From the IMG/VR virus record IMGVR_UViG_3300025466_000149, positions 1-27,057 of that record: 27,057 nucleotides of DNA. One strand, 5' to 3'. Origin of the DNA: a virus. Positions within the stretch are counted from its first letter, which is position 1, and each line of letters opens with the position of its first letter. Positions 1,256 to 8,445 of the stretch are shown here, piece after piece. Both the position numbers and the translations under genes were made by a program. Under the pieces are notes generated by a model. That model ran no database searches, had not been told where the DNA came from, and worked only from the letters and a program-made list of their open reading frames with translations.

Positions 1256-3246
1256 TATTTCTTTTTGCCTTTTTTAACTTTACCGCCTTTTTTCTTAGAC
1301 TGTGCATCATCTTGGGATGCGCCAGCACCAGCGATAGCACCAATCCCGTAGATAGGTTTATTTTTTAGTAATTGAGCTAACGCCTCATCTTGCGAAATAC
1401 CTAGCACGCGACTTGTTCTATGAATCATTTGATTAACATCTTCTATCATAGGCTGACCTATTTTAGATAATTCTTCTGGAGTTAGTTCTTTACCTTTAGC
1501 ATCTTTAAGAGCTTTTAATCCAGCCCAAGTGACAGACTGCCAATCGCTAGGCTCTTTAACACCTTTAAGTGCGGCCTGTTTAGCGCCTTCTAACTCAGCT
1601 AAACCATAAGATCCTTTAGGGGGTGCAGCCATGCTAAATGGAGTCATCATCTGCTCATCCATAGTAAGTCCTTGATGACCCATAAAATTACCGCTAAAGT
1701 CATATCTCTTTGGATTTTCTAAAGGGTTTAATTGATTACCAGCTTCTGCATATTTATTAGCCTGCGCAAGATTTGCACCAATACGGCCGCCTTGAACTGG
1801 GTGTGGTGCATCAAATGAATATCCTGTGTATTCACCAGGGGCATGCCCTGGTAAAGGTAATCCACTGGCATTCATATGATTAACATATCCCGCAGTCAAT
1901 AAATTGTTTGTGGGCGTTACACCACTGGTAGTATTGGCCATCTGATCCGCAAATTCAGTTTTGAATTTTTGTCTTCCTAACTCAGGACCGTATGCTTTAA
2001 CATATTCTTTCTCTAACTGATCCATTGCATAAAAGTGGTGTGCGTTAGGAGAATTTTTTGCTAACTCGTACGCGTCACTCCACTTTTGTATTGCTTCAGG
2101 ATTTTGAAATTTAGCAGTATAGGCATCAATTGTTTTTTGTTGTTTTGGTATAACGCTAGTAGTTTGTGGTCCTGGCAAAGGATAATTTGCTGGGTCTACA
2201 TACCCACGCTTTGAAATATCAAAGTAAGGTTTGTACGCAGAACTTCCAGATTTAATTTCTTCTTGTGCAAAATCTCTTGCAGCTTTAAGTGCTAATTCTT
2301 CAGAAGATGGATTTTTAGCTGCATAGTATGCTTCTTTATTTTTGTCCCATGCAGATACAGGAAAAGAAGTTTGCGGGTATTCATTTCTTAACTTGACAGG
2401 ATCATATCCAAATTTTTCGGCAAGTGTCAAAGGTTTAGACTTAGGTAATATTTTTCCTAGTGACCCTTCAATTGCCGGAGACATTTTAGCTGCCATTTTT
2501 GCGGCTGTCGCCAGTTTACCACCGGCAAAATTTTGAATCAAGCCGCCGGTTGCTTTTTCTTCCGGACTAGCAAGTTTATCAATTGCATAATTTACTGCGG
2601 GGACACCAAGCTGTAGTCCCTTAGCAATATTTTTCAATTTACCTGGAAGGTGTTTTTCTACCCAAGGAGCAGCCGCGGCCAATGCAGACGCACCAGCCTG
2701 TACGTTACTAAGCGGTCCCTCACCGGCATGCTGTAGCGCGTCCATGGCGTTGTATCCAGTAGAAAATGATTTCCCTGGCTTACTAGTGCGAAGGTTCTCT
2801 AACCCACTAACAGCCCTTTGGCCAACACTTACAGGCGGCTCTGGTGGGGTTACACGTTCAAAACCGGGGTAACGTTTAGCCAGTTCGTTATTGCGGCGAA
2901 TAATTTTAGCTTTTTCATTGATTGCATTTGCAGAACCAAACCAACGATCTTCGCCGGGAATATTTGTTGGAGCTGGAGGAGGCGCTGCAGGCACACCACC
3001 AAATAAATTTTTAGCAGCACCAAGCGCTGCCTTAGGAAGGCCAACACCATAGGCTAGAGCAGTCGCCTCGGCCCCACCGCCAAGATTAGCTAATGTACTA
3101 GGGCCTTCTTTTTCTGCGGTAGCGGCGGCAGTGATAGGCCCAAAACTAGAGGCAATTTCATCGACTACTTTATGCTGCTCGTCTTCTGACATATCCTTAA
3201 AATTGTCATCAACCTCAACCTGGCGACCATGAATCTCAATTTTCAT
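1255..3246 (-). CDS. Large virion-associated protein, probably internal/ejected
   Basis: 663 residues. The N terminus is a short acidic module (residues 1-36, MKIEIHGRQVEVDDNF then a helix rich in E and D). Alanine- and glycine-rich hydrophobic stretches follow near residues 50-85 and 230-265. The long middle is Pro/Asn/Tyr-rich without a recognisable enzyme motif. The last 70 residues hold a helical segment, a small hydrophobic patch (IYGIGAIAGAGA) and a Lys/Gly tail, KKKGGKVKKGKKK. Such proteins occur next to internal virion proteins of podovirus-like phages, so a role inside the capsid or in DNA ejection is plausible, but no function can be proved from sequence. It sits two bases after the upstream start region and couples to the ART-like gene by TAATG. 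Confidence 0.7.
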   Translation of the reverse strand: MKIEIHGRQVEVDDNFKDMSEDEQHKVVDEIASSFGPITAAATAEKEGPSTLANLGGGAEATALAYGVGLPKAALGAAKNLFGGVPAAPPPAPTNIPGEDRWFGSANAINEKAKIIRRNNELAKRYPGFERVTPPEPPVSVGQRAVSGLENLRTSKPGKSFSTGYNAMDALQHAGEGPLSNVQAGASALAAAAPWVEKHLPGKLKNIAKGLQLGVPAVNYAIDKLASPEEKATGGLIQNFAGGKLATAAKMAAKMSPAIEGSLGKILPKSKPLTLAEKFGYDPVKLRNEYPQTSFPVSAWDKNKEAYYAAKNPSSEELALKAARDFAQEEIKSGSSAYKPYFDISKRGYVDPANYPLPGPQTTSVIPKQQKTIDAYTAKFQNPEAIQKWSDAYELAKNSPNAHHFYAMDQLEKEYVKAYGPELGRQKFKTEFADQMANTTSGVTPTNNLLTAGYVNHMNASGLPLPGHAPGEYTGYSFDAPHPVQGGRIGANLAQANKYAEAGNQLNPLENPKRYDFSGNFMGHQGLTMDEQMMTPFSMAAPPKGSYGLAELEGAKQAALKGVKEPSDWQSVTWAGLKALKDAKGKELTPEELSKIGQPMIEDVNQMIHRTSRVLGISQDEALAQLLKNKPIYGIGAIAGAGASQDDAQSKKKGGKVKKGKKK

Positions 3247-3248
3247 AA

Positions 3249-5114
3249 TTAAAGAACCTTGTATTTAACGCCTGATTTAGTTGTCTTGTGGTCAGATGGT
3301 GCATCTAAAACATCCACAGTAATACCGGGGTATCTACTAATTAAAAGATCGCGCTCGTCTTTCATCATTTTTTCGTACTCTGGTGTAGCTAAAAATTTAC
3401 CGTAAGTTTTTAGTGGATCATCATTATGCCATTTTTCAAAGGCGGTGTTCTTTTTAACTTCAAACTCTGCACCATCTCTGGCTATTGTGGCGTATAGTTT
3501 ATTAACCTGAGGTAAAAATTCAGGGCTAACACCCTTACCTTTTAGTCCTAGTTTTTCTAAACCGATACCAAGTCTTGCACCCTTAAACATTTGCTGGGTA
3601 TACTCAATTCCAAGCTGTGTGGCATCAGTACTAAGACGTTCATCGGCGGCTATTAAATCTTTATCGCCAGACCATGCCAATTGCTTGGCCATCTCTTCTA
3701 CCTTGTCACCCTTACCTACCATCTCTGCAGCAAGTCTTGGAACGGCACCTAAGTACGTGGCCGGTGTACTACCACCGTGCATCCAACCCATTACTTTATT
3801 TAGCTTAGGATCATCTGCCATTTTAATAACACGATCTGCGGCTGCGGTGGTGGCCATAGCACGCTCAGTATCTTTTTTCAGTTGAGCTAAATCTTTACCA
3901 GTTTCTGTGGCGTAGGTTGTTGCCTCTTGTTTAGCAGCCTCAACAGGAATGGCTTGTTTTTGTTTGTATAACTCTAACGCATTTTTATATGCGTCTACGC
4001 TGCCATAATCTTTCATCTGTGGCGCATCTGAAGCTGCAGCTGCAGGGGCAGCAGCAGCTGGCGTGGCAAACAATTTTTGTAGATTGCCTTCTTGCTTGAT
4101 AATAGCCGTGCTAAGTGCCTGTCTAACCGCTGGATTTGTTAGATCAATTTTTTGATTAGGATCAATACCTAAGAATTGAGACGCGTTTTTAATTAGTGTT
4201 GGTGTATCGTTTTCACTAGGTGGTGCCCAGCGATTAATAATTCCAGATAATGTATTGATACCCTTGTCGCCGTATGCTTTTAAATTATCATCAATTCTAG
4301 CTAAGTCTTTATCTACAGACACCGGCGGCTGAAAGCCTGTGCTTTGACCAACGGGGCGCATGTTGCCTAAGTTAGTAGTGCCGGCTGTAGGGGTAGCAGC
4401 TGCACCGCTAGGAGCAGCCTGACCAGTTGGCAATTTTCTTGTAGCCTTAAACTCCAAATATTCATTTGGTGTCATGCTTACTAGTCCATCGCTACCGTTT
4501 GGACCAATTCCTGGAATGGTATACACCTCTGGTTTATTTCCAGCGGCCTCATATTTGCCTTTTGTAGCAGCACCGAACTCAGTCTTAGCTGCATCTTTAA
4601 TAACCGCCAACCTGCCTGCGTAGTCATTAGGGGCAAGAGTATCTAGCTCCGCCTTAACGCTAGGGTTGTTTGCAATAGTATTGATTTGCTGTGCAGTTAA
4701 ACCTGGAATAGAAGGCGCTCCAGCTGTTCCGGGGGTGGCAGCTGTGCCCGCTGGAGGATTAACAGATTCGTATTGTTTTTTAAGTAGCTCTTGTTGTGTC
4801 TGAGCAGAACGTAACCCAGCCATATCGGTGCGCATCTTAAATAGCTCTGCGGCCTCTTTAGCTTTTTGCTCATCGCGCATTTGAATTGCAGCTGTAGGGC
4901 CTGCTCGACCACCAGATCCAGCGGCGGAGGCGTCTTTTAGTCCACTCATAAAAAGATTTAACGGGCTTTGTCGCTCGTCAATAATCTTTTGCATACTGGC
5001 CAACAGCTTTGCATTTTCTTCTGGCCCCAAAGACATAGTACCAGATGGCACCAACGCGCCTTTGGTAGTCTCTTTGACCGGTATACTTAAACCACCTTGA
5101 ATTTCATCTACCAT
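3249..5114 (-). CDS. Virion protein with conserved RWAPPSENDT domain, probably internal/ejected
   Basis: 621 residues. Residues 1-115 are helical and charged and may form a coiled coil (EEQ/K-rich around 75-115). Ala/Pro/Thr-rich linkers follow (118-140, 230-248, 350-370). Residues 248-350 form a compact domain: NLGNMRPVGQSTGFQ, then INTLSGIINRWAPPSENDT and FLGIDPNQKIDLTNP. I recognise this domain from large phage virion proteins, often beside peptidoglycan-active or ejection proteins. No catalytic Glu/Asp set typical of lysozymes is evident. The C-terminal 240 residues are helical. Start ATG at 5114 has only a weak purine-rich ribosome site (AAGAGA). Position in a run of large Ala/Gln-rich proteins suggests an internal virion component. 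Confidence 0.7.
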   Translation of the reverse strand: MVDEIQGGLSIPVKETTKGALVPSGTMSLGPEENAKLLASMQKIIDERQSPLNLFMSGLKDASAAGSGGRAGPTAAIQMRDEQKAKEAAELFKMRTDMAGLRSAQTQQELLKKQYESVNPPAGTAATPGTAGAPSIPGLTAQQINTIANNPSVKAELDTLAPNDYAGRLAVIKDAAKTEFGAATKGKYEAAGNKPEVYTIPGIGPNGSDGLVSMTPNEYLEFKATRKLPTGQAAPSGAAATPTAGTTNLGNMRPVGQSTGFQPPVSVDKDLARIDDNLKAYGDKGINTLSGIINRWAPPSENDTPTLIKNASQFLGIDPNQKIDLTNPAVRQALSTAIIKQEGNLQKLFATPAAAAPAAAASDAPQMKDYGSVDAYKNALELYKQKQAIPVEAAKQEATTYATETGKDLAQLKKDTERAMATTAAADRVIKMADDPKLNKVMGWMHGGSTPATYLGAVPRLAAEMVGKGDKVEEMAKQLAWSGDKDLIAADERLSTDATQLGIEYTQQMFKGARLGIGLEKLGLKGKGVSPEFLPQVNKLYATIARDGAEFEVKKNTAFEKWHNDDPLKTYGKFLATPEYEKMMKDERDLLISRYPGITVDVLDAPSDHKTTKSGVKYKVL

Positions 5115-7443: not shown

Positions 7444-7896
7444 TTATTCCAATACTATCGAATATGTTTTTTCAAAATAATGACCACCAAGTCTTTCAAC
7501 TATCTTTCCATAATCCAAAAATGGTTTCATGTGGAATAGTATGCGCTGTGGGTTACGTTTTTTAATTTCTTCAGTCGTCCATTTGATGAACTTATAACCC
7601 AGCATTCCTTGTCGGTACTCTGGGCTAATATAAAGAACATCTGAAGATGCTGTGATACTTTTTTTGTAGTGCATGTGGTTTACAACCACCCATAAACTAT
7701 AACCAATTAATTTACCGTCGTCTCTTGCGGTATGTATCTCTAAGATTTTACTATTATATAATTGGTTATATTTTTTAATGTCGGGATCTAGCTCGATGAC
7801 GTCTTGTCTCTCGGCTATCTCCTCATAATGATTTTTAAATAACTCTACCGCCTCATCCGCAAATGGTGATGGTGCTTCTTTTTGAAACGTAATCAT
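7444..7896 (-). CDS. GNAT-family N-acetyltransferase
   Basis: 150 residues, the usual length of a single GNAT domain, which moves an acetyl group from acetyl-CoA to an amine. The order of elements fits: acidic N-terminal helices (1-40), a beta strand with a Gly turn (IHTARDDGKLIGYSLWVV, 54-71), then motif A at 87-110, with VLYISPEYRQGMLGYKF giving the R-Q-G-x-x-G pyrophosphate-binding loop, and a C-terminal FHMKPFLDYGKIVERLGG with the typical beta bulge/helix. Substrate is unknown. Single GNAT genes are common among late genes of podovirus-like phages. Start ATG at 7896 has a strong AGGGAGG ribosome site five bases upstream, and that site lies in the loop of a small hairpin (see leader). The gene follows the 50-residue gene after a 79-base gap. 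Confidence 0.85.
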   Translation of the reverse strand: MITFQKEAPSPFADEAVELFKNHYEEIAERQDVIELDPDIKKYNQLYNSKILEIHTARDDGKLIGYSLWVVVNHMHYKKSITASSDVLYISPEYRQGMLGYKFIKWTTEEIKKRNPQRILFHMKPFLDYGKIVERLGGHYFEKTYSIVLE

Positions 7897-7970
7897 TTGG
7901 ACCTCCCTGTCCTAGTTGGTGCCGCTATCTCTAAGGGAGTAGAGAAGGGGAGCGACCCCCGTTCGCGGCA
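7897..7970 (-). promoter_or_regulatory. Structured mRNA leader: three-way junction with possible anti-Shine-Dalgarno kissing loop
   Basis: On the transcribed strand, TGCCGC (7970-7965) can pair with GCGGCA (7925-7920) as a closing stem. Inside it lie GGGGG-TCGC-TCCCC (7960-7947, four G-C pairs plus a G-U) and a perfect 6-bp hairpin TCTCTA-CTCCCT-TAGAGA (7945-7928). Downstream, GGAC-AGGGAG-GTCC (7912-7899) forms a 4-bp hairpin whose loop is the ribosome site of the GNAT gene. The two hexaloops, CUCCCU and AGGGAG, are exact complements, so a kissing interaction or strand exchange could hide the ribosome site. Pairing was worked out by eye; no folding energy or homolog was available. Chance is possible because Shine-Dalgarno and C-rich stems complement each other easily. 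Confidence 0.45.
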
Positions 7971-7975
7971 AAGAT

Positions 7976-8128
7976 TTAAGCTGCTACTTTTTCTTCAGCT
8001 TTTTTAGCTAATGCCTCAGCAAAATCTTTAGACTGCTGTGAGCTTAGTTGCTCTTTGCTGTGCTTGGCCATAATTGCATCGGCCACCGCTTTGTCGTTCA
8101 GATACTTCATAGTTTGTTGTCCATGCAT
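7976..8128 (-). CDS. Small conserved-looking phage protein, 50 residues
   Basis: ATG at 8128 to TAA at 7976; product begins MHGQQTMKYLNDKAV and ends AEEKVAA. It is mainly charged and predicted helical, with no Cys, no membrane segment and no recognised domain. The case for coding is a good ribosome site (AAAGGA, seven to eight bases before ATG), placement right after a terminator hairpin plus promoter-like motif, and a compact gene with a clean stop before the structured leader. A second in-frame ATG is at codon 7. It is the first gene of the unit that continues into the acetyltransferase. Confidence 0.65.
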   Translation of the reverse strand: MHGQQTMKYLNDKAVADAIMAKHSKEQLSSQQSKDFAEALAKKAEEKVAA

Positions 8129-8146: not shown

Positions 8147-8168
8147 GTTCTACATATATTAATGCAAA
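8147..8168 (-). promoter_or_regulatory. Promoter-like conserved motif, copy A
   Basis: Reads TTTTTGCATTAATATATGTAG on the minus strand, one of four copies of a TTTGCATTATTATA motif in gene gaps of this window. It lies about 20 bases before the start of the 50-residue gene and just after a hairpin. This copy differs from the others at one position (AAT for ATT). I infer a promoter (phage polymerase or extended -10), because no fixed -35 block can be aligned among the copies. Confidence 0.5.
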
Positions 8169-8190: not shown

Positions 8191-8445
8191 TTATCTACTT
8201 GGGCCATTTATTTGCTCAGTGAAGTCTGTGGCCCACTGATCCCACTGTTCGTAATGCTCTGGTCTTGGTACCGGGTATGAGGCAAACGTGGATAGCTCTA
8301 CAATATCTTTTGCTGCCTCTTTCCAGTTTAGCTCGTCTACCAGGGGTATAAGCTCCTGGTTATAGTATATCGCCACGTTACCCAGCCAGTCGTCCCAGGT
8401 GCTATATGCTGGTAAAAATGGAAAGAATGGTTGTGTCCCTGACAT
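8191..8445 (-). CDS. Small virion-associated protein following the nozzle gene
   Basis: 84 residues, rich in Trp, Tyr, Phe and Pro (FFPFLPAYSTWDDWLGN, SYPVPRPEHYEQWDQW). I recognise short proteins of this style directly downstream of the nozzle/hub-like gene in many podovirus-like phages, so it is probably a virion or tail-assembly component; its function is unknown. The ATG at 8445 overlaps the stop of the upstream gene as TAATG. It is the last gene before a hairpin and promoter-like motif. Confidence 0.7.
   Translation of the reverse strand: MSGTQPFFPFLPAYSTWDDWLGNVAIYYNQELIPLVDELNWKEAAKDIVELSTFASYPVPRPEHYEQWDQWATDFTEQINGPSR

Follow-up and report, generated by a model that had tools for sequence, protein, structure and literature searches.

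The window analysed here, a virus record of 27,057 nt (27 kb), has a series of virion genes encoded on its minus strand. A gene for a 150-aa GNAT-type acetyltransferase on this strand is preceded by a structured leader, the parts of which are listed in Table 1; its ATG, at 7896, lies 2 nt past the last hairpin, P4. MFE prediction on the leader returned exactly a three-way junction (3WJ) followed by P4, at -28.4 kcal/mol, with P1 and P3 of 6 bp each and P2 of four strict pairs (five in the MFE fold). The first-pass annotation of this DNA had drawn the stems P1, P2 and P3 as nested inverted repeats between 7897 and 7970, and both the coordinates and the repeats were borne out by the sequence and by the MFE fold. 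It was also correct that the loop CUCCCU is the exact complement of AGGGAG, the Shine-Dalgarno (SD) sequence in the loop of the GGAC/GTCC hairpin.

The folding energy of the window leader is unremarkable and by itself weak evidence of structure, with a z of -1.29 against dinucleotide shuffles and 20 of 200 shuffles equal or better. Across folded members of the family described below, z ran from about -0.7 to -2.7, and the MFE z-score was set aside as uninformative. The window element stands above chance because its fold is conserved with compensatory changes and because the loops L3 and L4 co-vary.

Table 1. Positions of the leader elements and neighbouring features in the window.
Feature	Position	Strand	Basis
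Whole RNA element, 3WJ + SD hairpin, 72 nt	7899..7970	-	MFE fold; covariance model R1 match
P1 5' strand UGCCGC	7965..7970	-	MFE fold; compensatory GC to AU in L044, AU to GC in A7
J1/2 GAAC	7961..7964	-	GAA invariant in alignments A3, A5, A7
P2 hairpin GGGG-GUCGCU-CCCC	7947..7960	-	MFE fold; compensatory changes in L044, L048
P3 5' strand UCUCUA	7940..7945	-	MFE fold; 3 pairs altered on both sides
L3 kissing loop CUCCCU (anti-SD)	7934..7939	-	Perfectly complementary to L4; L3/L4 co-vary as 11 pairs across the family
P3 3' strand UAGAGA	7928..7933	-	MFE fold; pair changes in relatives
J3/1 UA	7926..7927	-	Kept in all members decomposed
P1 3' strand GCGGCA	7920..7925	-	MFE fold; compensatory changes
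Linker CCAACUA, single-stranded	7913..7919	-	MFE fold
P4 hairpin GGAC-AGGGAG-GUCC containing the SD	7899..7912	-	MFE fold; AU to UA compensatory change in L048/L049
P4 strands GGAC / GTCC	7912-7909 / 7902-7899	-	
L4 kissing loop AGGGAG = SD core	7903..7908	-	Pairing with L3; AGGGAG(G) complementary to 16S 3' end
Regulated gene, 150-aa GNAT-type acetyltransferase	7444..7896	-	PHROG 1249 acetyltransferase, E 9.7e-10
Promoter-like TTTGCATTAATATATGTAGAAC	8147..8168	-	Sequence comparison; promoter function inferred

The surroundings of the leader are variable. The slot after a conserved 84-aa gene (8191-8445, minus strand), together with about 200 nt beyond, is a cargo site that holds GNAT, cupin-like and other genes in different phages (loci L051-L130). 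Between the promoter-like motif and the element lies a 50-aa ORF (MHGQQTMKYLNDKAVADAIMAKHS...; 7976-8128, minus strand), for which a family search gave no match; small proteins similar to it occupy the same slot in L070, L103, L106, L116, L119 and L126. The motif TTTTGCATTAnTATATGTAGAA (8147-8168, minus strand) recurs between genes in many relatives, often as a direct continuation of a terminator-like hairpin (AGGGCG...TTTTTTGCATTAGTATATGTA). It resembles a promoter of the phages themselves, its spacing being unfit for sigma-70, and in L004, L005, L044 and L048 a promoter-like motif lies directly 5' of the element.

Members of the family and their common anatomy

Pattern, BLAST and covariance-model searches placed the element in about 35 phage contigs. 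Near-duplicate contigs are present, and distinct loop pairs rather than contigs were counted. The member phages are almost all metagenomic, the exception being the cultured Escherichia phage EP_H11, which carries one copy (BLAST, E 3e-5 against L153).

The covariance model R1, built from five sequences of the GNAT/cupin group, matched the window at 7899-7970 with 100 bits and, in related phage genomes, found two copies elsewhere (L145 and L146); a model made from GNAT/cupin leaders alone recovers the endonuclease group. A pattern derived from the shared P2, fixing CGAAC-GGGGUnGCUCCC, brought in about 23 additional contigs that show the complete architecture. Since many endonuclease-type members were collected with this pattern, the conservation of J1/2 and P2 is partly a matter of ascertainment. 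The converse model, R2, was built only from endonuclease-type copies and EP_H11, and it recovered the GNAT-type copies of G003 (E 5e-6) and G001 (E 5e-5; a copy identical to the window's), from which we conclude that the two groups form one family. R2 also found L195 and L196. Neither has the P2 sequence on which the pattern search relied, so this sequence is not essential. A descriptor consisting of the 3WJ, P4 and exact L3/L4 complementarity, run on 1.1 Mb of collected loci, gave 22 distinct matches, 20 of which are genuine copies of the element; a Markov control produced no match.

The descriptor matches in L073 and L102, where P2 is absent, were treated as chance. A pattern with free loops and a fixed 3' P1 strand returned only known members apart from L131-L137, chance matches by inspection. 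The pattern matches of L138-L140 in genome contigs were likewise chance, as were the P2-pattern matches of L152, L154, L157, L159, L167, L176, L177 and L179, in which the fold is absent; T5-like BLAST matches covered only the AAACTAATTGGAGTT stretch, without the junction. The P2 pattern had no match in 399 genomes from the phylum to which the Rhodospirillaceae MAG G111 (source of L139) belongs, and thus there is no evidence of prophage copies in that phylum; the EP_H11 copy had no match in E. coli genomes. The record L141 (PQ492659.1) is Limnohabitans phage DC33, of 39 kb and 52 features and labelled Inoviridae. The label is probably a taxonomy error, as the length and the 52 features fit a tailed phage better.

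The elements measure 65-74 nt and run in a constant order: P1 (4-6 bp), J1/2 (GAA(C/A)), P2, one to three letters, P3 (usually 6-8 bp) with L3 (usually 6 nt), J3/1 (UA), the 3' strand of P1, a linker, and P4 with L4. The conserved junction letters are GAA(C/A), U and UA. P4 was counted at 2-4 pairs in the member decomposition, and the fold of EP_H11 extends it to 6. The SD spans the boundary between L4 and the 3' strand of P4, taking in the end of the one and the beginning of the other, and the start codon (ATG or TTG) follows P4 by 1-6 nt in all members measured.

Covariation of the stems and of the loop pairs

A protein search in viral contigs found 39 relatives of the GNAT gene. The element precedes six of them (L001-L003 and L035, identical to the window, and the diverged L004 and L005) and is absent from the other 33, which makes it optional, or dispensable, for GNAT. 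A pattern search added L048/L049, where the element stands before a more distant GNAT, and L044, where it stands before an unrelated gene. The latter (2682-3569, minus strand) encodes a 295-aa protein in the phage cargo slot; its C-terminal part matches a SET domain (Pfam, E 8.5e-8), and its N-terminal half gives tail-fibre-like PHROG matches.

Within this subgroup the stems change in step. P1 of L044 replaces GC by AU, P2 changes from GGGG/CCCC either to GGGC/GCCC or to GAG/CTC, P3 has three pairs altered together, and P4 of L048/L049 turns GGAC/GUCC into GGUC/GACC; in alignment A3, seven pairs are altered on both sides. The loops CUCCCU and AGGGAG, on the other hand, are invariant throughout. 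The first-pass annotation had proposed to test homologous GNAT leaders for compensatory changes in the stems and paired changes in the loops, and in this subgroup only the former were found. The loop covariation comes from the homologues before other genes.

The same MFE fold was obtained for L004, L005, L044, L048, L145, L178, L180 and others; MFE did not show the full fold in L149, L164 and L166. All helices of the element carry compensatory changes, and in alignment A7, 11 pairs are altered on both sides. Over the whole structure 97.7% of the cells in A7 pair, compared with 35-58% in slid registers. None of 500 shuffles reached the observed covariation.

The pairing of the two loops, a guess in the first-pass annotation, is now supported. 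Members with strict 6-nt loops show 11 distinct combinations of L3 and L4, each Watson-Crick at six of six positions, whereas none of the 110 mismatched L3/L4 combinations is fully complementary and none of 20,000 permutations reached the observed total. Every sequence in A7 pairs throughout the kissing helix (100%), and both sides have changed at five of the six positions; the sixth, a C-G that touches the SD, is invariant. Its G belongs to the SD, which explains why this first kissing pair stays C-G whereas the other five vary freely but in step. The loops have changed together in L145 (CCAAUU/AAUUGG) and L146 (CUCAUU/AAUGAG), and EP_H11 has CCGCUU/AAGCGG. Four further pairs are CUAAUU/AAUUAG (L149), CUUACU/AGUAAG (L196), CCCUA/UAGGG (L153, pairing shifted by one) and CUAGGAA/UUCCUAG (L164, seven bases paired).

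Downstream genes and insertion sites

Outside the window group, the genes that follow the element are mostly of the HNH, endonuclease VII or GIY-YIG kinds: Endonuclease_7 in L146, HNH_3 in L149 and L165, and, in L158, a weak GIY-YIG match below Pfam's cut-off. The leader is also found with two replication-type genes, one of them replication-initiator-like (L164), with a gene of no assigned function in L178, and with the GNAT and cupin/SET cargo genes of the window's relatives. The regulated gene is thus not an endonuclease in the window, L004, L005 and L048/L049 (GNAT), L044 (SET-domain match) or L164. The proposal of a switch particular to the GNAT gene did not survive the 33 of 39 GNAT relatives without the element and its placement mostly before endonuclease genes. 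Identical leaders precede the HNH_3 gene of L149 and the GIY-YIG-like gene of L158, which indicates that recombination can bring one leader together with different genes.

At a single intergenic site (loci L200-L219), flanked by genes for proteins of 131 aa and 360 aa, the RNA and an endonuclease are present together in 12 contigs (gap of 636-804 nt), and seven relatives have neither, with about 230 nt between the genes. The empty sites contain a terminator-like hairpin and a promoter-like TTGCATTAGTATATGTA before the downstream gene. At the occupied sites the hairpin beside the upstream gene is missing, and most retain the promoter-like motif in front of the downstream gene. In the majority of cases measured, only 5-12 nt separate the upstream stop from the start of the RNA, so that transcription of the endonuclease would come by read-through from upstream; no obvious promoter was found between that stop and the RNA.

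Proposed mechanism and relation to known systems

We propose, with a probability of about 0.78, that the element is a mobile cis-acting translation lock and represents an undescribed RNA family. Its fold, covariation, kissing pairs, SD position and joint presence or absence with endonucleases are observed; repression and any switching are inferred from these, there being no expression data. The small junction of P1, P2 and P3 would position P3 so that the 6-nt L3 can pair with the 6-nt L4 of P4. With the SD shared between L4 and the 3' strand of P4, and only 1-6 nt upstream of the start codon, the kissing complex would hide it from the ribosome, and the default state would presumably be one of low translation. 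The leader is portable, occurring with endonuclease, replication-type, GNAT and cupin/SET genes. Rough duplex energies, -3.7 to -8.6 kcal/mol for L3:L4 and -5.5 to -11.8 for SD:anti-SD, are of similar size and compatible with competition between lock and ribosome. A broader version, in which the portable lock is a new and widespread phage RNA class, co-mobile with homing-type endonucleases and used by cargo genes, and in which the junction senses an infection signal (a metabolite or a phage protein) and times selfish endonucleases, remains tentative.

The lock might be opened by a ligand, a phage or host protein, temperature, RNA processing or upstream translation. The likeliest of the alternative explanations is a riboswitch or protein-binding operator in which a metabolite, or a phage or host protein, at the 3WJ stabilises or breaks the kissing loop, and translation follows. 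Class-II cobalamin riboswitches have this architecture of a receptor domain with a kissing loop to an RBS hairpin (PMC10907184), the junction letters GAA(C/A), U and UA are conserved, and the attachment of several unrelated genes is often seen with sensors. However, only about seven unpaired letters are conserved, which is small for a ligand pocket, and the downstream genes share no common pathway. The ligand dependence of the env8 riboswitch comes from a bulge or mismatch in its loop-loop helix (PMC10907184), whereas the 6-nt loop pairs here are all perfect, and a corrinoid riboswitch given a stronger kissing loop of four pairs seldom attained the unbound, open state (PMC10653944). By this analogy the perfect 6-bp pairs would argue for a firm lock over a finely tuned metabolite switch. 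One cannot exclude a ligand or protein at the junction, and we regard this possibility as real but doubtful.

Somewhat harder to sustain is timing by alternative 5' ends or RNA processing, by which transcripts with the whole leader would be silent and those starting or cut inside the 3WJ would lose L3 and be translated. Such timing is documented for I-TevI in T4, with similar arrangements at other phage homing endonucleases (PMC2988022), and the occupied endonuclease sites, without an obvious promoter and presumably read through from upstream, would suit it. In L004, L005, L044 and L048, however, the promoter-like motif stands upstream of the complete element, so that transcripts would include the lock, and no internal promoter or processing site has been demonstrated. 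We hold it to be unlikely.

Compact structured 5' leaders can shield mRNA. The structure could accordingly protect or stabilise the message, or present the ribosome site instead of blocking it, with the SD in L4 a by-product, and the element does begin soon after the promoter-like motif in L004, L005, L044 and L048. Simple protection, however, does not need exact L3/L4 complementarity beside a start codon, and in each member examined the SD is inside the P4 and L3-L4 helices, with loop position 1 a C-G where the SD overlaps; we give this reading little weight. For inverted repeats arisen by chance, or a coding segment under conservation, one might cite the energy within the shuffled range and a reading frame through part of the element in L044 and L048. 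Both are already contradicted by the covariation, by the empty Markov control, by single-base indels that break the shared frame (e.g. window versus L005) and by stops in it, and we consider them practically untenable.

If the element is a translation lock, it would explain how endonuclease genes can be inserted harmlessly behind active phage promoters. One riboswitch class is known to conceal its ribosome site by loop-loop contact, and a smaller unrelated RNA appears to do likewise while seeming to travel with phage endonucleases of several families. Its scaffold accepts no fewer than 11 distinct 6-nt loop pairs, so that it would be a naturally reprogrammable lock and possibly a useful translational part.

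The family is absent from Rfam 15. At the gathering threshold, the window and seven member loci gave no match to the element, and at E<=10 the window and the EP_H11 and L146 copies gave only chance-level matches far below gathering, none of them cobalamin, in agreement with the earlier statement that no named riboswitch has this layout. No description was found in the open full-text literature; an earlier one in subscription papers is not excluded. The annotation had also seen neither a hammerhead nor a tRNA here, and rightly: the hammerhead core (CUGAUGA...GAAA) is absent by inspection and without an Rfam match, and a tRNA-like reading prompted by GCGGCACCA found no support from ARAGORN or Rfam. 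The DUF2815 RNA (RF03084), an Rfam motif about 2 kb downstream of the element in L146 (577-641, minus strand; just before a DUF2815-like gene), L153 (1204-1265, minus strand) and L155 (2843-2901, minus strand), is a different locus and model, to which the element itself had no match.

Among leaders with a described function, SAM-III (S-MK) and preQ1-II are also three-way junctions that occlude an RBS (PMC10907184). Their RBS lies inside the junction, whereas that of the element lies in a hairpin of its own, contacted through loop-loop pairing, and the element has no Rfam match. The pseudoknot of the T4 gene 32 leader is likewise a phage leader in translational control (PMC3014915), but it is autoregulated by protein and lies 67 nt upstream of the start codon, without a kissing loop over the SD.

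Closer in gene content are the homing endonucleases of T4 and Aeh1, which are kept off by RBS-sequestering hairpins that, in T4-type phages, are opened by a late start site (PMC2988022). The leaders of T4 I-TevI/II/III and segB and of Aeh1 mobE hide the RBS of an HNH or GIY-YIG endonuclease (PMC2988022, PMC3014915), and the element equally places an endonuclease RBS in RNA structure, with the SD inside P4/L4 in L146, L149, L165 and L158. Those leaders are simple local hairpins, in contrast to a conserved 3WJ with a kissing loop, and the element, unlike them, spans different endonuclease families and non-endonuclease genes.

Closest in mechanism are the class-II cobalamin riboswitches (env8 HyCbl, E. 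coli btuB), in which a junction domain is followed by a hairpin with the RBS in its loop, occluded by loop-loop pairing (PMC10907184, PMC10653944). In the off state of env8 the aptamer loop L5 kisses L13 over the RBS hairpin (PMC10907184), and this L5-L13 contact is a mechanistic precedent for a layout that the first-pass annotation could not assign to a named riboswitch. The kissing loop that marks this class is matched here by the L3/L4 covariation, as an analogy of mechanism only. The element is one small junction of about 50 nt with no Rfam cobalamin match and no known ligand; its loop pairs are perfect over 6 bp and very variable, in contrast to the UCCCG consensus of L5 and the bulge and mismatch of env8, and its genes are phage endonucleases and cargo rather than B12-related. 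We classify it as a new RNA family, unrelated to the class-II cobalamin riboswitches, with a proposed mechanism of a known kind.
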